A stretch of DNA of 64,000 nt from Methanomicrobia archaeon. Its GTDB lineage: Archaea > Methanobacteriota_B > Thermococci > Methanofastidiosales > NM3. The position numbers were made by a program, and so were the translations under genes. The notes beneath the pieces are model-generated. The model was not told the DNA's origin, ran no database searches, and saw only the letters and a list, made by a program, of their open reading frames with translations. Each line of letters begins with the position of its first letter. The stretch's first letter is position 1. Location of the stretch: assembly GCA_030603445.1 (NCBI GenBank), contig JAUVXU010000002.1, positions 1 through 64,000 of the forward strand, read 5' to 3'. This document shows positions 25,065-34,339 of the stretch, in pieces.

Positions 25065-25796
25065 TCATTTACTTAATCTCTTGTCAATAGACATCAATTC
25101 CTCTATAAGTTTTCTTCGCACTTCCTGTGTAAAGCGATTATAGTGATGCATGTCAAAAAACAGCTGATCTGAATCGTTTTCAACAATTGTAACAAGTTCT
25201 TTTAGTCTATCGTGCGTTGCAGTTGCCACATCGACGGACTTGATATCTATCTTAGATAACGCATTTCCGAAAAAATGGATTAATGCAAGGGATCGGGCCA
25301 TCTGCCTATCATGCTCTTCAGGCGCCAGGACTATTGTTTCTAGCCCTATTTTTTCAAGAAACGATACTACACGTCCAAGCCTTTTTGTCCTTATAGGGCA
25401 AAGCGCTATTTTCTTTCCCCCTATACCGTTTTTTGTGGTGTCTGGTCCAAAGAGGGGATGTGTTCCTATGCATTCACAGTATTGTGGGACTATTTTTTGC
25501 ATAACTGCAACAGGATATTCTTTGACAGAACACGTGTCAAGGACTAACGCTCCTTTCTTCAAGAACGGAGCAATGTCATTTAGTACTTCCTCAATAGAGG
25601 ATATTGACAAGCACAGTATCACAATGTCTTGTTTTGCACACTCTTTTTGGTCTGTGTATCTTACCCCTATGCGTTTTGCTTCCTTTCTGCGATCTGTGCG
25701 ATTAGTAACAACTACTATGAAATGTTCCTTGAGGCATTTTGCAACATACTGGCCAAATCTGCCAAATCCAATTATTCCAACGCTATGTTCGCTCAT
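25065..25796 (-). CDS. tyrA: Prephenate dehydrogenase
   Basis: A 243-residue NAD(P)-dependent enzyme converting prephenate to 4-hydroxyphenylpyruvate, the tyrosine precursor. The Rossmann motif GIIGFGRFGQYVAKCL is at residues 6-21, followed by VVVTNRTDRR. The conserved TyrA segments are DTCSVKEYPV, CIGTHPLFGPDT (catalytic His in the HP of this motif) and a C-terminal helical part with MARSLALIHFFG. It is shorter than bifunctional TyrA, with no mutase or ACT domain. Last gene of the aro operon; its start overlaps the end of pheA by 4 bases. Confidence 0.9.
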   Translation of the reverse strand: MSEHSVGIIGFGRFGQYVAKCLKEHFIVVVTNRTDRRKEAKRIGVRYTDQKECAKQDIVILCLSISSIEEVLNDIAPFLKKGALVLDTCSVKEYPVAVMQKIVPQYCECIGTHPLFGPDTTKNGIGGKKIALCPIRTKRLGRVVSFLEKIGLETIVLAPEEHDRQMARSLALIHFFGNALSKIDIKSVDVATATHDRLKELVTIVENDSDQLFFDMHHYNRFTQEVRRKLIEELMSIDKRLSK

Positions 25797-26611
25797 ATAG
25801 CTACACCTTTTACATTTGAAGGATAAGAACCCAGGATTTTAAGTGACACGCAGTGTTCTTTTATATTATCGATAACTGATATTATCACATCATCTTTACA
25901 ATGCCCCTTAAACTCCGCTAAAAAAGCATACTCCCACGGCCTGTCCTTTATTGGCATAGACTCAAGTCTTGTCATGTTGATGTTCGCGCTGGCAAAAGGT
26001 TTCAATGCATCAAAAAGAGCACCTCCAACATGTTTTGTAATAAACATTATAGTCGTCTTGTCATCGCCTGATGCATCAGTCTCATTTGCAGATATGACAA
26101 AGAATTTTGTCATGTTCTCCTTGGAATCCTGGATATCCCTTTTAGCTATGCTTAAATCATAAAGTGCTGCTATCCTCTCATTTCCTATTAATGCTATAGT
26201 TTTGTCCTTTCGCACCTTGGCAGCTGCCGCAGCACCATCCCACCAAGAAATTGGTCTGCAGTCCATCCCGCTTAAAAATCCCTTGCATTGTGCCAATGCT
26301 TCGGGGTGGGCATATACATACTTTATATCATCAGGCAACGCATCTTTTCTTGTTATAAGGCAGTGTCTTATTCGTAATGCGCCTTCTTTGCATATCTTAA
26401 GGCTTGAACTTATAAGCAGATTTGTAGGTTCAACTATCCTTCCTGTCTGCGTATTTTCAACCGGGATTACCCCATAGTCTGCCCTACCTGTTTCCACGCT
26501 GTCAAAAACATCCTTAAATGTTTTATGGGACAGTGTTTCTGCCCCTTTGAAAAGTTTAAGTGCCATGCTCTCACTAAAGGCGCCCCTGTCCCCTTGGAAG
26601 GATACCTTCAT
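25793..26611 (-). CDS. pheA: Prephenate dehydratase with ACT domain
   Basis: A 272-residue prephenate dehydratase, which makes phenylpyruvate for phenylalanine. N-terminal GDRGAFSESMALKLF, DYGVIPVENTQTGRIVEP, then ENMTKFFVIS (the TRF-type catalytic loop with Thr in MTKF). The C-terminal ACT domain (residues about 185-270: GALFDALKPFASANINMTRLESMPIKDRPW) contains the ESRP-like signature, used for feedback inhibition by phenylalanine. The gene overlaps its neighbours by 4 bases on each side. Confidence 0.92.
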   Translation of the reverse strand: MKVSFQGDRGAFSESMALKLFKGAETLSHKTFKDVFDSVETGRADYGVIPVENTQTGRIVEPTNLLISSSLKICKEGALRIRHCLITRKDALPDDIKYVYAHPEALAQCKGFLSGMDCRPISWWDGAAAAAKVRKDKTIALIGNERIAALYDLSIAKRDIQDSKENMTKFFVISANETDASGDDKTTIMFITKHVGGALFDALKPFASANINMTRLESMPIKDRPWEYAFLAEFKGHCKDDVIISVIDNIKEHCVSLKILGSYPSNVKGVAI

Positions 26612-26880
26612 TTATTACACCTTTCTTGTACGCTTTTGCTCATTGATATTACTTCTTGTAAAATAGCCATAACCCCTTTAACAGGAAGACCTAGAGCATT
26701 TGCCTTCTCCTTCCAAAGTTTTAGGACCTGCCCTTCCCTATCAGGGTCGTGTACAGGCAGTTTTGCACTTTGTTTGTATGAGGCGATATCTTTGGCTAGT
26801 TCCATCCTTCTTAACAAAAGATCAAGTAATTTGGTGTCTACTATGTCTATTTCCCCTCTTAGGGCGTCTAGCGGCTTCAT
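26608..26880 (-). CDS. aroQ: Monofunctional chorismate mutase (AroQ type)
   Basis: A 90-residue all-helical chorismate mutase converting chorismate to prephenate. The conserved pattern is LDALRGEIDIVDTKLLDLL, RRMELAKDIASYKQ, DPDREGQVL and a C-terminal VISMSKSVQ. ATG 26880 is chosen because it overlaps the aroC stop as ATGA and starts right at the first catalytic helix. An in-frame upstream extension would lie within aroC and does not resemble the family. Supplies prephenate to pheA and tyrA immediately downstream. Confidence 0.92.
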   Translation of the reverse strand: MKPLDALRGEIDIVDTKLLDLLLRRMELAKDIASYKQSAKLPVHDPDREGQVLKLWKEKANALGLPVKGVMAILQEVISMSKSVQERCNK

Positions 26881-27950
26881 AGTCCCGACCTCATCAAAAG
26901 GTCTAGTGCGCATATCGCAGCCATGTTTTCTATCACGGGCACTGCGCGAATGCCAATGCACGGATCATGCCTTCCACTCATTTCAATGATGGTTTCTTTC
27001 TTCGTTTTCATGTCCACGGTTTTTTGCCGCTTTCCGATGCTTGGGGTAGGCTTTATTGCCACCTTGAAGACGATTGGCATGCCTGTGCTTATTCCCCCCA
27101 AAACACCGCCGGCATTATTTGACTTTGTGATTATCTTGCCATTCTTGAAAATGAATGGGTCGTTGTTTTCCGACCCTTTCATCGAAGCACTTTGAAAACC
27201 GCTTCCAAACTCCACGCCTTTGACAGCAGGTATGCTAAACATGGCGTGGCTTATGACGCTTTCAACTGAATCGAACATTGGCTCCCCTACACCAGGAGGC
27301 ATGCCTATTATCCTGCACTCTATGCATGCTCCTATGGAGTCTGAATCGCTCATTGCGCCGTATACTTCCTTCTCCATAAGACTTGCAGCACCTGCATCTG
27401 CGCAGTGTATGGCATCTTGGTCAATTCCCTCTATCTTCTGGTCCTCTATGCCTTCTTTGGCCTTTACATTGCCTATTTGAACAATATGCGAAAGCACCTT
27501 GATGCCCTTACCATCAAGCACCTGTTTTGCCAAAGCTCCTGCCATCACAAAAGCTGCTGTCATCCTTCCCGAGAATATTCCTCCGCCCCGCAAATCGTTA
27601 TGTCCTTTATATTTTATGGTTGCCATAAGGTCTGCATGGCCTGGGCGCGGTGTAACTTCTATGTTTTTGTATGCGCTTGAGTCAACATCCTCGTTTCGTA
27701 TGATCATCGTTATAGGGGCACCTGTTGAAACACCGTCTAAAACCCCGCTTAACAGCTGCATAACATCGCCTTCCTTTCTTTGTGTCGTTAATATGTTTCT
27801 TCCCGGCCTTCGCCTGTCAAGCTCTGCCTGAATGCGCCCCGTATCAATAGTTATCCCTGGAGGGCATCCCTCAACTACTGCGCCGATGCATGTGCCGTGG
27901 CTTTCCCCAAATACGCGTATTTTATATATGGTACCAAAACTAAACGTCAA
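26877..27950 (-). CDS. aroC: Chorismate synthase
   Basis: A 357-residue FMN-dependent enzyme making chorismate from EPSP. All three family signatures are visible: RVFGESHGTCIGAVVEGCPP near the N-terminus, then GHNDLRGGGIFSGRMTAA in the middle, and the C-terminal MSGRHDPCIGIRAVPVIENM. Full length with no odd features. It overlaps the end of aroA by 11 bases and the start of the mutase gene by 4. Confidence 0.97.
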   Translation of the reverse strand: MTFSFGTIYKIRVFGESHGTCIGAVVEGCPPGITIDTGRIQAELDRRRPGRNILTTQRKEGDVMQLLSGVLDGVSTGAPITMIIRNEDVDSSAYKNIEVTPRPGHADLMATIKYKGHNDLRGGGIFSGRMTAAFVMAGALAKQVLDGKGIKVLSHIVQIGNVKAKEGIEDQKIEGIDQDAIHCADAGAASLMEKEVYGAMSDSDSIGACIECRIIGMPPGVGEPMFDSVESVISHAMFSIPAVKGVEFGSGFQSASMKGSENNDPFIFKNGKIITKSNNAGGVLGGISTGMPIVFKVAIKPTPSIGKRQKTVDMKTKKETIIEMSGRHDPCIGIRAVPVIENMAAICALDLLMRSGL

Positions 27951-29217
27951 TTATATCAGCTCCGATAATTTTCATATCTTCTATAAACGCCGGATAGCTC
28001 TTTTTTATACACTCAACACCAGATATTCTTGTCACCCCGTCTGCAACTATTCCTGCAACTATACAGGACATGGCTATCCTATGGTCGTTATGAGAGCTTA
28101 GTAAAGCCCCATTCAACGGGGTTGGGCCCTTGATTAACAATGAATCCTTATTTTCATCTATCTTTGCGCCCATCTTTTTGAGCTCTGCTGTTATTGTATG
28201 AAGCCTGTCGCTTTCCTTTATCCTTAATCTGGATGCATTATATATCCTAGTTTCGCCTTTAGCCTGTGTGGCCAAAACTGCAAGTATTGGCACAAGATCC
28301 GGCACATCGGACGCATCTATATCACATGCGCTTAGCTGGGACCTTTGTGCATAGACGCCGCCATTTCTTGACAAGACGCTTCCCCCCATCCTTTTTAATA
28401 TGTTTAATATTTCCTTGTCCCCTTGTTTTGATTTGGGCATTAAGCCTGTTAGCTTGATGCTTCCGGAAAGTATGCCTGCAGCAAGCAAAGGTGCAGCAGA
28501 GCTAAAGTCCCTTTCCACCTCATAGTTGCATCTCTTATAAGATTGCCCGGGAAGAATAGTGAACTTTCCATAATTTTTTTCATATGTTATGGAAATACCA
28601 AATCTTCTTTCAACATCCATAGTCATATCTATGTATGGTTTGGATTGCAATGGTGTGGCAAGGGTAATAATCGTCTCTTTTCTTGCCTTAGGGCATGCAA
28701 GAAGAAGCGAGGACAGATACTGTGAACTTACATCCCCACGAAGCGATACATCGCCCCCCTCGATTCCCCCTCCGTTTATTATCAGTGGCGGCATGCCATT
28801 TCCCCTTGATGAGCGGCATATTGCGCCAAGCTGTTCTAGGGCACGAAGCAATTCCCCTGCAGGCCTGCTGCGCAGAGAATCGTCTCCTGTCAGGACGCTA
28901 GTCCCTGGTGCCAATACGCTAAGCGCCGTAAAGACCCTTAACGTAGTTGCAGACCCGTGGCAGTCTACAACGTTATCGGGTGTCTCCAATATACCAGTTC
29001 CCTCTATTGCAACGCCACCTTTTTTCAACGACACTTTCGCCCCAAACATCTCGCACGCACGTAGTGTTGCATTTGTGTCATCGCTATAAAGCACATCTTT
29101 TAACATTGATCTTCCGTCTGCCATCATTGCGCATATCATGGCCCTATGGGTGTAGCTTTTGGATGATGGCGGCCTTATGCCCCCCTCTATCTCGCTCTTT
29201 CGTACCTGAATTATCAT
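27940..29217 (-). CDS. aroA: EPSP synthase (3-phosphoshikimate 1-carboxyvinyltransferase)
   Basis: A 425-residue enzyme that joins PEP to shikimate 3-phosphate. PPSSKSYTHRAMICAMMADG near the N-terminus carries the substrate-binding Lys, Ser and Arg. Further family segments are NCHGSATTLR-type VDCHGSATTLRVFTALS, LRGDVSSQYLSSLL, RLRIKESDRLHTITAELKKMG and the C-terminal SHNDHRIAMSCIVAG. Typical length. It overlaps aroK by 4 bases. Confidence 0.97.
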   Translation of the reverse strand: MIIQVRKSEIEGGIRPPSSKSYTHRAMICAMMADGRSMLKDVLYSDDTNATLRACEMFGAKVSLKKGGVAIEGTGILETPDNVVDCHGSATTLRVFTALSVLAPGTSVLTGDDSLRSRPAGELLRALEQLGAICRSSRGNGMPPLIINGGGIEGGDVSLRGDVSSQYLSSLLLACPKARKETIITLATPLQSKPYIDMTMDVERRFGISITYEKNYGKFTILPGQSYKRCNYEVERDFSSAAPLLAAGILSGSIKLTGLMPKSKQGDKEILNILKRMGGSVLSRNGGVYAQRSQLSACDIDASDVPDLVPILAVLATQAKGETRIYNASRLRIKESDRLHTITAELKKMGAKIDENKDSLLIKGPTPLNGALLSSHNDHRIAMSCIVAGIVADGVTRISGVECIKKSYPAFIEDMKIIGADIIDV

Positions 29218-29738
29218 TTCCTGCCACCTTCTGTCAAATATATCACCCTCTTAGCAACCTCGCTTGGGTCCATGTCCGTAGTATCGATGATATGGTGTGC
29301 TGCACGCCTGTAGCTTTCAGAGCGTTTTTTAATTAGTTCATTTACCTGTTCATATTTATCTTCGGAGTTTAGCAACGGCCTTTCTAAACTATGATTTGTT
29401 CGAGAAACTATCGCTAAAACTGATGCGACAAGTAAGATAACTGTGGACGATTCCCTTAATATCTTGATATTTTCCTCATTTACCACTATACCGCCGCCGC
29501 AGCTTATCACAATGCCTTTGCATTTGGCAAGTTCTTTGAGCAGTCCATTCTCCATGTCTCTGAATCGTGGCTCCCCATCCTTCTCAAAGATGGATGCAAT
29601 CGTTGCGCCATGCCTTTGGGAGATTATATCATCCATATCAGCAAAACGTGTGCCCAGCCTTTTTGCAACAAGCTCCCCTATAGTTGTTTTCCCCGTGCCC
29701 ATAAAACCTATTAGCGCAATGTTTCCTTCCATAAGCAT
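29214..29738 (-). CDS. aroK: Shikimate kinase, bacterial AroK/AroL type
   Basis: A 174-residue P-loop NMP-kinase-fold shikimate kinase: Walker A GFMGTGKTTIGE (11-22), shikimate-binding DMDDII, REPRFRD-type EPRFRDME, CGGGIV, and the lid region TNHSLERPLL. Most euryarchaeal methanogens instead have a GHMP-type shikimate kinase that is unrelated in fold, so this is either a bacterial acquisition or a lineage trait. Genes on both sides abut or overlap. Confidence 0.93.
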   Translation of the reverse strand: MLMEGNIALIGFMGTGKTTIGELVAKRLGTRFADMDDIISQRHGATIASIFEKDGEPRFRDMENGLLKELAKCKGIVISCGGGIVVNEENIKILRESSTVILLVASVLAIVSRTNHSLERPLLNSEDKYEQVNELIKKRSESYRRAAHHIIDTTDMDPSEVAKRVIYLTEGGRK

Positions 29739-30581
29739 TCATCCTTTGTGGGCTTTTATTGCTGCACGCCTCATTATATCTATTGGAGCGCGTATCCCTG
29801 TCCAGATTTCGAAGCTATGCGCCCCTTGAAAAACGAGCATGTCAATTCCGCCTATTATGCCACATCCTGCCTTTCTCGCCTCTGCAAGAAGTGGCGTTAC
29901 CTGTGGGTCGTAAACCAAGTCCATGACCACCATGTCCTTGTGCAGGTTGTTATTAGTTATAGGAAGAGTGCTTTCCCCCATGCTATGCATGCCCACGGTC
30001 GTGCAATTTATTATAATATCAACTTCATCCATCTGTTTTTTGAAAAATGACATGTCCCCATATCCAATGGGTGCCCCCCTGATGTCCTCTAATATATTTG
30101 AGAGCTTACGGGCGTTTTCCAGACCCCTGTTTATTATCATGATATCTGCTGTTGTGTGTGACACAAGCGATACTGCAACAGCCCTTGCAGCGCCTCCTGC
30201 ACCTATCACTACTACGTTCTTGTCATCCAATTTTTTACATTTTTCAGTTAAGGCGTCAAGACAACCAATCCCATCAGTATTTTCGCCTATTAGCATCCCG
30301 TCCTTTACGTAAACTGTGTTTACCGCCCCGATAGATGCCGCTTCATCGCTAATTTTATCTAGATGTTTTACTATGTGGCTTTTGAGAGGATACGTGACAT
30401 TAGCACCATGCACCTTTCCAATGCGCATCATTTTCTCCAAGGCGCTAATCTCCGATAGATTTAATCTCACCTTTTCATAATGGTATTCTTTTTCCAGACC
30501 CACTGCCTTAATAGCAGCGTTATGCATCACAGGGCTTAGTGAATGGTGTATTGGGTCGCCTGCAACCACCAATAGATTCAA
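29739..30581 (-). CDS. aroE: Shikimate dehydrogenase
   Basis: A 280-residue NADP-dependent enzyme reducing 3-dehydroshikimate to shikimate. N-terminal GDPIHHSLSPVMHNAAIKA, catalytic Lys in GANVTYPLKSHI, ENTDGIGCLDAL, Rossmann GAGGAARAVAVSLV, and the C-terminal GGIDMLVFQGAHSFEIWTG. The basic residue expected after the second strand for NADP is in NRGLENARK. Its start overlaps aroD by 4 bases. Confidence 0.96.
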   Translation of the reverse strand: MNLLVVAGDPIHHSLSPVMHNAAIKAVGLEKEYHYEKVRLNLSEISALEKMMRIGKVHGANVTYPLKSHIVKHLDKISDEAASIGAVNTVYVKDGMLIGENTDGIGCLDALTEKCKKLDDKNVVVIGAGGAARAVAVSLVSHTTADIMIINRGLENARKLSNILEDIRGAPIGYGDMSFFKKQMDEVDIIINCTTVGMHSMGESTLPITNNNLHKDMVVMDLVYDPQVTPLLAEARKAGCGIIGGIDMLVFQGAHSFEIWTGIRAPIDIMRRAAIKAHKG

Positions 30582-31246
30582 TTGCCTAACCCCTTTAGCA
30601 CAATTTTCATATCTTCAACGTTCAATTGGCCTGGAGCGGTCTTATCCCTTGCAGCAACATACATAAATGGCGAACCGTAGTAAAGGGATGCCACTCTTGT
30701 TATCGCACCAATTTCCCCCATAGCAAACGCTATAAGGGGAAAGCCTATCTTTTTGGCTTCAAGCATCATGCCCAATATTGTGTGGCAATCATCTGGAGAG
30801 TTTGCTGTTGTGACTAGCTTTCCCATGTTAGCACCGCTTTTCTGTAATTTATGAAGAGTGTTTCGCAGTATCCTTTCTGAAGGCGTATCGGAAAAATAAT
30901 GCTTTGATATGATAGATGCCACATCATGATCCCTAGCATCATCCAATATAGATGCCCTTAGCTCATCATTAGTGTCAAGCTCCACATCTATGCCAGAAGC
31001 CCCAGCCCTTATGGCATCTTTCAATATATTTATCCTGTCTACTTCACTTCCCGTAAAACGACCCCCCTCCCAGGCCGGTCTGTTAGTTGCTATCACAGAT
31101 TGTTTAAGAGAAGAATAAAACGTTTCAAGCCCTCTTGCATCGTCCAAATAATCGATCCTATGCTCGACAAGAGGGGTATCTATATATTTTGCCACGCCAA
31201 GGCAGTGCTCGATGTTTTGTTCTGCCAAGCATGCACAAAGCTTCAT
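30578..31246 (-). CDS. aroD: 3-Dehydroquinate dehydratase, type I
   Basis: A 222-residue class I enzyme forming 3-dehydroshikimate through a Schiff-base lysine. Seen: VEHRIDYLDD, the EGGRF-type WEGGRFTGSEVDR, DVELD, the active-site His in SIISKHYFSDTPSE and the Schiff-base Lys in MGKLVTTANSPDD. C-terminal FAMGEIGAITRV and GSPFMYVAARDKTAPGQL are family hallmarks. Overlaps aroB' by 4 bases. Confidence 0.95.
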   Translation of the reverse strand: MKLCACLAEQNIEHCLGVAKYIDTPLVEHRIDYLDDARGLETFYSSLKQSVIATNRPAWEGGRFTGSEVDRINILKDAIRAGASGIDVELDTNDELRASILDDARDHDVASIISKHYFSDTPSERILRNTLHKLQKSGANMGKLVTTANSPDDCHTILGMMLEAKKIGFPLIAFAMGEIGAITRVASLYYGSPFMYVAARDKTAPGQLNVEDMKIVLKGLGN

Positions 31247-32160
31247 TTTTCAATCACCATTTCATCCATGACATGAATACCGAAGTGTCTTCCTCCTTCT
31301 TCTAGATGCACAAAGACCTTATCTCCAACTTTTATATCTGTGACCGCTATGCTTTTTCCATTTGATACAAGCTTCACAGTTTCCGCCTTTTGCAACACTG
31401 CCTTTGCGACCCTTTCGTCGCTTTTTGCTTCAATTAGAAGCAGTGGCCGCAGTTCTATTTTTGAACGTGCAACGTATGTCGTACGCGTATTTCCGTCTCT
31501 GTCGATTATTAAAACATCGTCACCTGCTTTTATCTCCTCTAAGTACCGCGTCTTGTTTCCTGGTGCAAATGCGTACAACGACAAAGCCCCGGCATTTACA
31601 CGAAATGGCCGTGGCGACACAAATGGATTTTCTTCCACTTCCGCTTGAATTAGAAACATTCCTTGAGAAGAAGTACCGACAAGCATGCCCGTGCCCTCAT
31701 CCATGAGATCACAAGTGTCAATGCAAACCCTTGCACCCAGGCCTAAATCCTTCACAACAGATATTGTGGCCTGCTCTATAGACAACTTTTCGCTTTGCTG
31801 CATGTATACGACTATCTTGGAGAGTTGGAGCGGATCATCAGTTTCTAACACTACTCCATCTGCCCCAATTTCAAGGGTTTCCAGTGCTATCTTTGCTTTA
31901 TTGGCGTCCTTTACCTTTACTAGCACATTCGTCTTCCCCTTAAGCTGTGCAACAATATTTTCTAAAGGTATTATCTCTTGATCTGGGAATTCCAAGATTA
32001 TGTTCTCACCTGTTGCCATCCCTATCACCTTCATTTCATCCAGCTTGTCGTTGACCTGGATTACAGGTGTATCATCTGTCTCATCGTAAAGGGGAAGTCC
32101 AAGAAAGATTGCTTCTTTTCTTACCTCTTCGCTATTTGTCTGTACCACAACTTGCTTCAT
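31243..32160 (-). CDS. aroB': 3-Dehydroquinate synthase II (archaeal type)
   Basis: A 305-residue archaeal dehydroquinate synthase, which oxidatively deaminates and cyclises the product of ADH synthase, replacing bacterial AroB. Seen: GADGVVLETDDPLQLSKI, GLGARVCIDTCDLMDEGTGM, GSSSQGMF-type VGTSSQGMFLIQAE, NAGALSLYAFAPGNKTRYL and IDRDGNTRTTYVARSKIE. ATG 32160 is chosen because AGGTG lies 7 bases ahead and it overlaps the upstream stop as ATGA. Somewhat shorter at the N-terminus than some homologues. Confidence 0.95.
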   Translation of the reverse strand: MKQVVVQTNSEEVRKEAIFLGLPLYDETDDTPVIQVNDKLDEMKVIGMATGENIILEFPDQEIIPLENIVAQLKGKTNVLVKVKDANKAKIALETLEIGADGVVLETDDPLQLSKIVVYMQQSEKLSIEQATISVVKDLGLGARVCIDTCDLMDEGTGMLVGTSSQGMFLIQAEVEENPFVSPRPFRVNAGALSLYAFAPGNKTRYLEEIKAGDDVLIIDRDGNTRTTYVARSKIELRPLLLIEAKSDERVAKAVLQKAETVKLVSNGKSIAVTDIKVGDKVFVHLEEGGRHFGIHVMDEMVIEK

Positions 32161-32948
32161 ATAGCACACCTCAATTCTTTTAGAGCTTCCTCTACAGAGG
32201 CTTTTTCGACGATAATAGAACGTATTGCATGTACTATGGCAGACGGATTTGTATGCTGGAATGCGTTTCTCCCTAATGAAACACCTATGGCGCCCCCTTC
32301 CATGGCACCTGATACCATCTCCAAAATATCTTTGTCATTGGAGCATTTCGGCCCGCCTGCTATCACGATTGGGACCGGGCATCTTCTAATCACATCCTTA
32401 AAAGAGTCTATATCCCCTGTATACATGGTTTTTACTATGTCTGCCCCAAGCTCGTAGCCTACCCTTGCAGCCAATGCCACTGACTCGGGGTCCATTGAGT
32501 TTGATACGTTCTTTCCACGAGGGTACATCATTGCCAAGAGAGGCATTTGTTTTTGTTCGCATTCTGTAGCTACTGCACCAAGTGCAGTAAGCATCTCTGG
32601 CTCGGATTCGTTTCCACCGATGTTTATGTGAACCGAAACAGCATCCGCCCCAAGACGCACGCCATCATCCACCGTGGCCACAAGGACTTTTTTGTTTGGA
32701 TCGTCTGCCACTCTTGTACTAGCCGACATATGCATTATAACCCCGCATCGTGTCGGTGTTTGAATGCTCCGTAGGATCCCTTTGTGCAAAAGCACTGCAG
32801 ATGCCCCTCCGGCATCTACGGAGGAAACGATTTTGTCCATATCCTCTAGTCCCCTTATAGGCCCATCAGTGGTCCCATGATCCATTGGTATTATAATGGC
32901 TTTTCCTTTTTCTGTAATCCTGTTCATTCGTATTTTTTTCCCATTCAT
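32157..32948 (-). CDS. aroA': 2-Amino-3,7-dideoxy-D-threo-hept-6-ulosonate (ADH) synthase
   Basis: A 263-residue class I aldolase that condenses a 6-deoxy-5-ketofructose-derived fragment with aspartate semialdehyde, the first step of the archaeal aromatic pathway. Seen: IIIPMDHGTTDGPIRGLED, DAVSVHINIGGNESE, the Schiff-base Lys in GADIVKTMYTGD, and phosphate-binding VIAGGPKCSND and GAIGVSLGRNAFQH. GGAGG at 32956-32960 (minus strand) is its SD, and it overlaps the small upstream frame as ATGA. Confidence 0.95.
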   Translation of the reverse strand: MNGKKIRMNRITEKGKAIIIPMDHGTTDGPIRGLEDMDKIVSSVDAGGASAVLLHKGILRSIQTPTRCGVIMHMSASTRVADDPNKKVLVATVDDGVRLGADAVSVHINIGGNESEPEMLTALGAVATECEQKQMPLLAMMYPRGKNVSNSMDPESVALAARVGYELGADIVKTMYTGDIDSFKDVIRRCPVPIVIAGGPKCSNDKDILEMVSGAMEGGAIGVSLGRNAFQHTNPSAIVHAIRSIIVEKASVEEALKELRCAI

Positions 32949-33347
32949 GGCAATTCCTCCGTGCCAGAAATATCCACGCTCCCGGAGGAGGCGTTGATAA
33001 TATGCTGTGTTCTTTGCAATTGGTGCAAAGAGTGTGCATGGTGCCTTGCATCAAGTACCTGGTGCAAACTACCATTAACCGGTAAATTGTCTAAAATAGT
33101 TGACCTAGATGCCCCTTCCAATACATTGTTCCTTGCTATGGTAGCATTTGAACACGATCTTATGACAGCCTCTATGTGTTCTTGAGCACAACTGCCATCT
33201 GTTGGAACAACGGCCTCATCAACTTGCTGTAATGTGGCACAAGAGTCAGGTGTTAAACTATGCTCTGCAACCAAGGAAAAGACATCGCCAAAGATAAAGA
33301 CGTCCCCCCCTTGTACAGTTTATATTTTCTCTTCTCATTGTTTTCAT
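32945..33347 (-). CDS. Possible frameshifted small gene at the head of the aro operon
   Basis: ATG 33347 has a strong SD (AAGGAG at 33357-33362), but its frame closes after 29 codons at 33258. A second frame, readable from TTG 33274, stays open for 109 codons and ends overlapping the aroA' start as ATGA. The two would join into a 133-residue product if the G7 run at 33304-33310 were G6. The product (NCTRGDVFIFGDVFSLVAEH and onward, rich in His, Ala, Ser) matches no family I know. Alternatives are a sequencing error, programmed slippage, a leader ORF followed by structured RNA, or chance. Several hairpins (TGCTA-CCA-TAGCA among them) lie in the region. Confidence 0.4.
32956..32991 (-). promoter_or_regulatory. 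Possible SD-sequestering hairpin ahead of aroA'
   Basis: On the minus strand CCTCCTCC (32984-32991) can pair with the aroA' SD GGAGG (32956-32960), or alternatively with the adjacent GGGAG. Just upstream TTTGC-ACCAATT-GCAAA forms another stem. The mutually exclusive pairing suggests translational control; this is inference from base complementarity. Confidence 0.4.
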
Positions 33348-33401
33348 TTTTTTATTCTCCTTTTTATGGTTTATAGAGTTCTCTTATAGGTTGTTGCAAA
33401 C

Positions 33402-33439
33402 AAACACGCATTTGATAATAAAAATCACAAAACGTGTTT
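33402..33439 (-). promoter_or_regulatory. Hairpin directly after the aromatic leader peptide (candidate attenuator)
   Basis: AAACACG (33402-33408) is the exact complement of CGTGTTT (33433-33439), with an inner TTTG/CAAA pairing at 33411-33414 and 33428-33431, giving an 11-bp interrupted stem. It begins five bases after the stop codon of the leader peptide, where a stalled ribosome would disrupt it. Confidence 0.6.
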
Positions 33440-33443
33440 ACAT

Positions 33444-33524
33444 TCAATAACTAAAGTAAAAACAATAAAAGCTACGAAAATCATTTTTTGTATCCTTGTA
33501 AATAGATGCGATTTTCATGCTCAT
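33444..33524 (-). CDS. Phe/Tyr-rich leader peptide of the aro operon
   Basis: A 26-codon gene in the only sizeable gap of the 14.6-kb aromatic supercluster. It has a good SD (AGGTGAT at 33528-33534) three bases before ATG 33524. The peptide ends NDFRSFYCFYFSY: seven of the last 11 residues are Phe or Tyr, the end products of the operon downstream. Such a run just before a stop and a hairpin is the classic layout of a ribosome-stalling attenuator leader, as known for bacterial pheA and trp operons. TATA-like sequences lie at about 33546-33555 and 33571-33578. Regulation is inferred; the ORF, SD and composition are seen. Confidence 0.7.
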   Translation of the reverse strand: MSMKIASIYKDTKNDFRSFYCFYFSY

Positions 33525-33586
33525 TAAATCACCTAATTATATTTTCCTTATAAACTTTTCGGTATTTTTGATATTATACTTCAATT

Positions 33587-34339
33587 TTATCTCAATCCTT
33601 CCCTTAGCTCCTTTATCTTATCCTCCAGTTTTTCGTCAGCATCTTCTCCAAATTCTTCTATTATCTTGACAAGTGCACTTCCAACGATAACAGCATCTGC
33701 ACCTGCACCCACTAGCTTCTTGACATGCTCTGATCTTGAAATTCCAAACCCTACCGCAAGCTGATTTTTACAAAGCGATTTTGTCTTATGTAAGGCTTCA
33801 AAAGCAATTTCCTGTACATCATCCTGCATCCCTGTTATACCGTAGTGTGACACCAAATAGATAAATGCACACCCGGAATCATCTATTTTCTTTAGCCTAT
33901 TATCTGCCGTGTTTGGCGCTACCATAAATATGGGCTTTATACCATAACTATCGCAGATTAACTGGTAATCTCCTGCTTCATCAAAAGGCAGATCTACAGA
34001 TATCACCCCATCTGCTCCTGCATCACGTGCATCTTGCATGAATTTTTCCACACCGCGCCGATATATTATATTATAATATGTCATCAAGACTATAGGGGTA
34101 TCAGAGCTCTTCCTAAACTTGCGAACTATGTCAAATATTGAATCAACGGTCGTCTTGGACTCAAGTGCCCTGTAATTTGCCCCTTGAATGGCCTTGCCAT
34201 CTGCCACAGGGTCGCTAAATGGAATACCAAGCTCTATTACGTCGGCATAACCATCAAGCACCTTCATGAATCTTAGGGTTGCGTCTGTTGATGGATCGCC
34301 TGCCGTGATAAAAGATATTAGAGCTGGAGCTTTGAACAT
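33587..34339 (-). CDS. trpA: Tryptophan synthase alpha subunit
   Basis: A 250-residue TIM-barrel subunit that cleaves indole-3-glycerol phosphate to indole, channelled to Trp[17 protein letters not shown], catalytic Glu in [15 protein letters not shown], catalytic Asp in [13 protein letters not shown], and phosphate-binding [15 protein letters not shown] and [11 protein letters not shown]. The 5' end overlaps trpB by 22 bases. Last gene of the trp operon; 62 bp downstream the aro leader peptide begins. Confidence 0.96.

Follow-up and report, generated by a model that had tools for sequence, protein, structure and literature searches.

In the window, by which we mean the whole 64,000-nucleotide stretch of archaeal DNA analyzed here, the gap upstream of the aromatic biosynthesis operon probably acts as a ribosome-read sensor of Phe and Tyr that controls the shikimate/Phe/Tyr operon in cis. 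With somewhat less assurance, the sequences of related leaders incline us to the broader view that Archaea control aromatic biosynthesis by a sensing step in which starvation triggers +1 frameshifting at a pair of hungry codons, one for Phe and one for Tyr, and that the shift has been secondarily hard-wired in some lineages by deletion of a base at the slip site. In the mechanism that we propose, a near-leaderless transcript would be translated from a first open reading frame, ORF1. When Phe- or Tyr-tRNA is in short supply, ribosomes would dwell on the aromatic run of ORF1 and the RNA fold after its stop would change. Ribosomes on a second frame, ORF2, would reach two YUU codons, one just before a Tyr codon and one just before a Phe codon, both downstream of a Shine-Dalgarno (SD)-like stretch; those starved for Phe or Tyr would slip +1, read past the early stop, and thereby either expose the start of the aro genes or couple to it. 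In Methanomicrobiales the cassette of slip sites is fused to the aromatic leader, and a shift at the leaderless ORF would lead into the aromatic run, which ends just before a hairpin; in many species this hairpin masks the SD of aroA'. From the conserved features described below, we infer that ribosomes do shift frame, that the shift is driven by starvation and increases aro expression, and that ORF1 acts on ORF2.

All features of the window described here lie on the minus strand. The gene presumed to be regulated first, aroA' (32157..32948; Pfam DeoC), encodes a DeoC/LacD-family protein, the enzyme for the first step of the archaeal aromatic pathway. It is followed by aroB', aroD, aroE, aroK, aroA, aroC, pheA, and tyrA (25065..32169), and Pfam matches confirm this content, pheA and tyrA included, as it had been read from the sequence without database searches. 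AroA' of the window is 54-61% identical to its counterparts in Methanomicrobiales and Methanocellales, the nearest outside its order, versus about 31% to those of Thermococcales. The identity is about 60% with Methanocella-like genomes, and the Thermococcales at about 31% belong to the same class as the window organism. Because AroA' is nearer to Methanocellales and Methanomicrobiales than to Thermococcales, horizontal transfer of the aro operon together with its leader is suggested. Apart from L058 and L059, the organism and group names used here (Methanocellales, Methanosarcinales, Methanocorpusculum-type, Methanoculleus-type, and Thermococcales) are presumptive, assigned in part from AroA' similarity. 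Two side observations concern gene models. The aroB' gene (31243-32169) begins at about position 64 of 344 of its profile (PF01959), and the copy in the sister species G001 also lacks the first 47 positions; either the N-terminus of this lineage is short or the start is mis-set. The HisG match of the window organism (L216, G000:C27:74437-74892) contains an in-frame TAG, reflecting a pseudogene, an assembly error, or a TAG read as a residue.

The gap between trpA and aroA' measures 638 nt. The sequence-only reading had described in it a 26-codon ORF whose end is packed with aromatic residues other than Trp, and this is borne out. ORF1 (33444..33524; 26 codons) encodes MSMKIASIYKDTKNDFRSFYCFYFSY and terminates in NDFRSFYCFYFSY before its stop; seven of the last 11 residues are Phe or Tyr and none is Trp. 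The presumed control codons (FRSFYCFYFSY) span 33447..33479. None of 400 shuffles matches the aromatic count of ORF1, scored as the best count per 600 nt over all three frames. A BRE/TATA promoter element, ACCGAAAAGTTTATAAG, lies at 33547..33563, with the TATA starting 30 nt upstream of the ORF1 ATG, and the position of the TATA predicts that the mRNA is probably leaderless or near-leaderless, as in relatives. The good SD once ascribed to ORF1 does exist, as an SD-like AGGTGAT lying 5 nt upstream of the ATG, but it may fall outside the mRNA because the TATA position implies a (near-)leaderless transcript. The stem reported right after the ORF1 stop is likewise present in the predicted fold (33401..33440), and hairpins also follow ORF1 in L029, L030, and L032. 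However, its stability alone is unremarkable (z -0.84), the larger fold from 33524 to 33330 reaching z -2.2. In the window fold, the aromatic codons of ORF1 can also pair with the start region of ORF2 over about 12 bp (33330-33479), a pairing not evident in relatives.

Part of the attenuator design that had been proposed for this region holds, namely a Phe/Tyr leader peptide with conserved aromatic ends upstream of an aro operon, but nothing terminator-like was found in 32900-33620. Rfam covariance models, including those for T-box elements and riboswitches, gave no match. Refolding the RNA with a ribosome stalled on ORF1 had been suggested as a check; in the window family, folding models predict only a weak effect of the stall on the ORF2 start, so we do not retain ORF1 stalling as a direct opener of that start.

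Below position 33400 the gap is not empty. The device as originally described was incomplete, having missed ORF2 (33347-33258), the two-site +1 cassette, and the open +1 frame that runs into aroA' and overlaps it at ATGA. ORF2 (frame A; 33258..33347), the ORF of the frameshift cassette, encodes MKTMRRENINCTRGGRLYLWRCLFLGCRA and is preceded by the SD GGAG at 33357..33360; a homologous R-G-x-R-L-Y peptide occurs in L029, L030, L032, and L232. An SD-like element, AAGGGGGGG (AGGGGGG; 33304..33312), lies before the Tyr slip site; within the order it was detected solely at aro leaders, one degenerate match aside. At this first slip site, CUU UAU (33294..33299), the P-site Leu codon could re-pair as UUU in the +1 frame while a Tyr codon occupies the A site. 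The second, CUU UUC (33276..33281), has a Phe codon in the A site. Frame B, the +1 frame of ORF2 (32945..33298), is open for 117 codons until its TGA overlaps the aroA' ATG (ATGA). It contains no stops, versus five and eight in the other two frames, and has no in-frame start codon before the slip site. Frame B resembled a broken gene, and a sequencing error in the run of seven G in ORF2 was considered and rejected. Relatives carry six G followed by AA, which keeps the length equal, and the relationship between frames A and B is therefore real.

We sampled the window family as four genomes with an aroA' leader, together carrying five devices. Loss of the ORF or of its aromatic codons in relatives had been named beforehand as the observation that would count against the leader. 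Instead, an aromatic-rich leader ORF precedes aroA' in all four genomes, its aromatic end kept while the flanks drift. The aroA' leaders of G001 and G002 (same genus; L029 and L032) and of G003 (same family; L030) are MNLSNMSWHCGNEGSSYRFGFFYY, MNLSIRTWQFEYEGSSYRFGFFYY, and MSTKISAPMQTAAWRDVRSFDWFYFSY, and the aromatic end is also kept in L232/L233. In each of the four genomes, a second short ORF with an SD lies 3' of ORF1, those of relatives ending in TRGERLYVGRSVWPAGRRLFRNNQC and HKRGERLYLGRHVWEPTARGRCFFPGTTQ. The core of ORF2 in the family reads AAGGGGGG-R-ACG-Y-CTT TAT, followed by CTT TTC or TTT TTC as the second slip site; CTTTAT at the first is identical across all five devices. Frame B measures 117, 60, 60, and 56 codons in the four aroA' devices, with no stops versus 1-8 in each other frame, and its TGA overlaps the aroA' ATG as ATGA in all four. 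No frame-B start codon precedes the slip site in three of them. In two further genomes, aroA' was either not found (G004) or preceded by another gene with no leader (G009).

A cassette scan across the 21 genomes of the order returned the aroA' leader of each of these four genomes, an additional copy in G001, and a match in G006 that we rejected as degenerate and internal to a gene; the reversed pattern gave no matches in the same 21 genomes. The extra G001 copy (L232/L233) is a complete device, with a promoter, an ORF1 encoding MDMKQNPSSHRFTSMDFSFGSFSYTFY, an SD, and an ORF2 encoding MSTGRNDDTRGDRLYRRCLFS with CTT TAT and CTT TTC. Its frame-B TGA overlaps the start of aroB', below which lie aroD, aroE, aroK, aroA, aroC, pheA, and tyrA. 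In this sister species the operon is split, and each half carries the device. ATG/TTG codons do occur upstream in frame B of L233, which counts against entry by slippage only. For the window family, the output step is most simply read from the sequence as coupling through ATGA.

In Methanomicrobiales, all 89 leaders read have an aromatic-rich frame before aroA', again with drifting flanks. The distance from the end of this frame to aroA' is usually about 36-80 nt, reaching 233 nt in a few leaders. The last 15 residues of the frame hold on average 7.3 aromatics, versus 3.1 for shuffled leaders and 2.7 when the reverse strand is read (89 leaders). Codon usage was compared in the 30 best-matching (Methanoculleus-type) leaders, where the aromatic end uses TTT for 74% of Phe and TAT for 95% of Tyr, compared with 5% and 6% in aroA' of the same genomes. 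Such rare control codons are what is expected of attenuators. The spacing from TATA to AUG is 28-36 nt, and in most leaders the AUG so positioned starts an ORF that is usually 14-22 codons long, M(C/R/Q)GECFFAGECFYLG and stop, with the aromatic run in the +1 frame. The cassette sits at this leaderless AUG and is built of 18-nt units, for example GGUGA-AUGU-UUU UUC and GGUGA-AUGU-UUU UAU. Two leaders (L095 and L105) have three such units rather than two, the first without its Phe pair. Many genomes, for example L071, also have a third overlapping frame within the first unit, ATG TTT TTT CGC CGG TGA (MFFRR and stop).

The P-site codons of Methanomicrobiales cassettes are only TTT (119) or CTT (27), and the A site invariably holds a Phe codon at site 1 and a Tyr codon at site 2. 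A P-site codon able to re-pair in +1 (YUU.U) is present in all 73 cassettes and in all five family devices. The YUU.U motif defined the cassette, yet no leader read has the F-F/F-Y peptide without it. The SD-like element lies 4-6 nt from the slip codon in cassettes and family alike. To relate the cassette to the reading frame, the AUG was chosen by TATA score alone and the presence of the slip-site pair was then compared with the frame offset. A cassette accompanied offset +1 in 72 leaders, no cassette accompanied offset 0 in 14, and in three the wrong AUG had been chosen. After correction of these three, the cassette predicts +1 in 73 of 73 leaders and its absence predicts an in-frame AUG in 16 of 16, across more than 20 different leader lengths. 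Frame B contains no stops in 3574 codons, versus 168 and 187 in the other frames; the zero frame thus stops early while the continuation frame stays open, as in a programmed +1 frameshift. Within the cassette, pN/pS is 0.22 in frame A versus 2.5 in frame B, from which we conclude that selection acts on the frame-A peptide of the cassette. For the middle of frame B, pN/pS is 0.68, and no amino-acid constraint is seen there. The ratio for the aromatic end is uninformative because the residues between the aromatics vary freely. Taken together, the aromatic ends, the two-site cassette, the strict frame rule, the hairpin position described below, and the ATGA overlap are conserved.

The alternative that survives best, although we consider it improbable, is a plain leader-peptide attenuator without frameshifting, in which the cassette ORF would be a small, independent sensor of Phe and Tyr, with the aromatic frame starting at its own GTG or ATG within the cassette or by re-initiation. 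A GTG or ATG does occur in frame B before slip site 1 in all 73 cassette leaders, mostly from the GGTGA motif, and internal initiation of frame B in Methanomicrobiales is possible and compatible with the sequence. Furthermore, Methanocellales and 16 Methanomicrobiales have a single in-frame leader. However, such a start would sit a few nucleotides past the leaderless AUG, with no room for an SD, and a frame-B start near the stop of ORF A is found in only 17 of the 73. It would also leave three of the four family aroA' devices without an in-frame start, and the invariance of YUU-U before the Phe and Tyr codons speaks against it. Moreover, lineages that lost the cassette have brought the AUG into frame through deletions at the slip sites themselves. 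Relative to the cassette-bearing L087 and L112, L123 lacks one T inside slip site 2 (CTTTAT to CTTAT); L148 and L152 lack 1 nt at slip site 1 relative to their cassette-bearing relative L149; and Methanocorpusculum-type leaders lack 4 nt at slip site 1. Each deletion puts the AUG in frame with the aromatic end, and the three lineages look as though they have hard-wired the shift. Because deletions at the slip sites restore the AUG frame, an aromatic frame with its own start codon is hard to reconcile with these leaders.

Under the frameshift reading, the fold after the aromatic run is the candidate output step in Methanomicrobiales. A hairpin starts no more than 12 nt from the leader stop in all 86 leaders measured (mean z -2.2). 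In one subgroup, compensatory changes were found in 12 cells versus 5.2 in shuffles, with 89.5% of cells paired. In about half of the leaders this hairpin is predicted to mask the SD of aroA', and in about half such masking is not seen. A stalled ribosome was simulated by making the RNA unavailable for pairing as far as 9 nt beyond the leader stop, and gains of more than 0.3 in SD accessibility were counted. By this measure, the SD opens up in 37 of the 81 Methanomicrobiales leaders modeled, versus 6 of 81 shuffled controls. Where the SD is masked, control may be translational, which the modeled folds fit.

The aromatic leader is conserved in about 100 genomes. We searched 394 genomes of the phylum for the cassette pattern; 44 carry it, once per genome and all Methanomicrobiales, and the reversed pattern gave no matches in the same set. 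Where leaders were read, the cassette match of the genome is the leader of aroA'. In Methanocellales, four of four cases have just one aromatic leader, read in frame, for example one ending in SELSFSFGFCFWFN, and apparent competing stems and U-runs were seen in these leaders by eye. No leader was found at aroA' of Methanosarcinales. Upstream of aroA' in that group (L197-L199, L202-L205, and L208) is a palindromic motif like GTGCTA..ATGTCACA..TAGCAC, a likely transcription-factor operator. Trp or His leaders were absent from the trp and his genes of nine genomes, and the trp operon of the window begins right after its promoter.

Another reading is that the 18-nt direct repeats where the transcript begins serve as a DNA operator bound by a transcription factor, the reading frames being mere by-products. 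We regard this as quite unlikely. The units are near-identical and in tandem, two or three copies just after the promoter, and Methanosarcinales aroA' has operator-like palindromes instead, both of which would suit an operator. Such an operator leaves unexplained the selection in frame A, a +1 frame with zero stops that ends in rare aromatic codons, the perfect association of cassette and offset, and the ATGA coupling; in the window family, moreover, about 200 nt of transcript precede the cassette. Marginally less credible still is that RNA polymerase slips on T or G runs and so gives access to frame B, or that ORF2 and frame B make a functional small protein by frameshifting. Many cassettes do contain runs of six T or of six to seven G, but at many sites there are only three or four T (CTTTTC, CTTTAT, TTTTAT), too short for ordinary slippage. 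We rejected frame B as a conserved protein, since it has no Pfam match and its middle is unconstrained, its fixed part being the aromatic end or the aroA' overlap. Short ORFs are common and the hairpin alone is unremarkable, but a chance aromatic ORF without function is contradicted by the conservation in about 100 genomes and by the shuffle, frame, and selection statistics, and we dismiss it.

Archaeal amino-acid operons are usually thought to be controlled by transcription factors, TrpY and the like. In the open-licence full-text literature we found no description of an archaeal amino-acid leader-peptide attenuator and no earlier description of such a Phe/Tyr frame-slip switch, although a tool paper contains the passing remark that archaea, too, have leader peptides acting by attenuation (PMC10219788). 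The proposed device is directly testable because it is small, is present in cultured methanogens, and has natural pre-shifted alleles.

By analogy, the device would combine the workings of an attenuator leader with those of a frameshift sensor of the prfB kind. With the bacterial attenuators (pheL-pheA, trpL, and hisL) it shares a short ORF with a run of end-product codons just upstream of the operon, a hairpin directly 3' of the stop, and rare control codons. Unlike them, it is archaeal, its ORF is near-leaderless, and no terminator was found in the window; its run covers Phe and Tyr (and Trp elsewhere), and to the leader ORF it adds another that carries slip sites, together with translational coupling. 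The opening of a hairpin by a stalled ribosome, which is predicted to free the SD in about half of the Methanomicrobiales leaders, resembles ermC-type translational attenuation, but the signal here would be a hungry aromatic codon and not an antibiotic with a nascent chain. The +1 frameshifting of prfB (RF2) offers a YUU.U site, an upstream SD-like element (AGGGGG/GGUGA here), a slow A-site codon, and an early stop avoided by the shift. In bacterial prfB, the SD-like element lies 3 nt from the slip codon, whereas the spacer here is 4-6 nt; the slow codon would be a sense Phe or Tyr codon, the sites are two in tandem, the product would be regulatory, and the host is archaeal. We do not file the device in either family because it lacks the terminator of the one and the 3-nt SD spacer of the other. 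Finally, as in hungry-codon frameshifting, the shift is expected when the A-site aminoacyl-tRNA is scarce, although that phenomenon is known from starved E. coli. A 2016 review knew of no example in which hungry-codon frameshifting makes starvation-specific products, called pheL frameshifting incidental, and described the archaeal frameshifting cases as mostly -1 (PMC5009743). If the proposed mechanism is true, a leader that senses two amino acids by hungry-codon frameshifting would answer that remark (PMC5009743).
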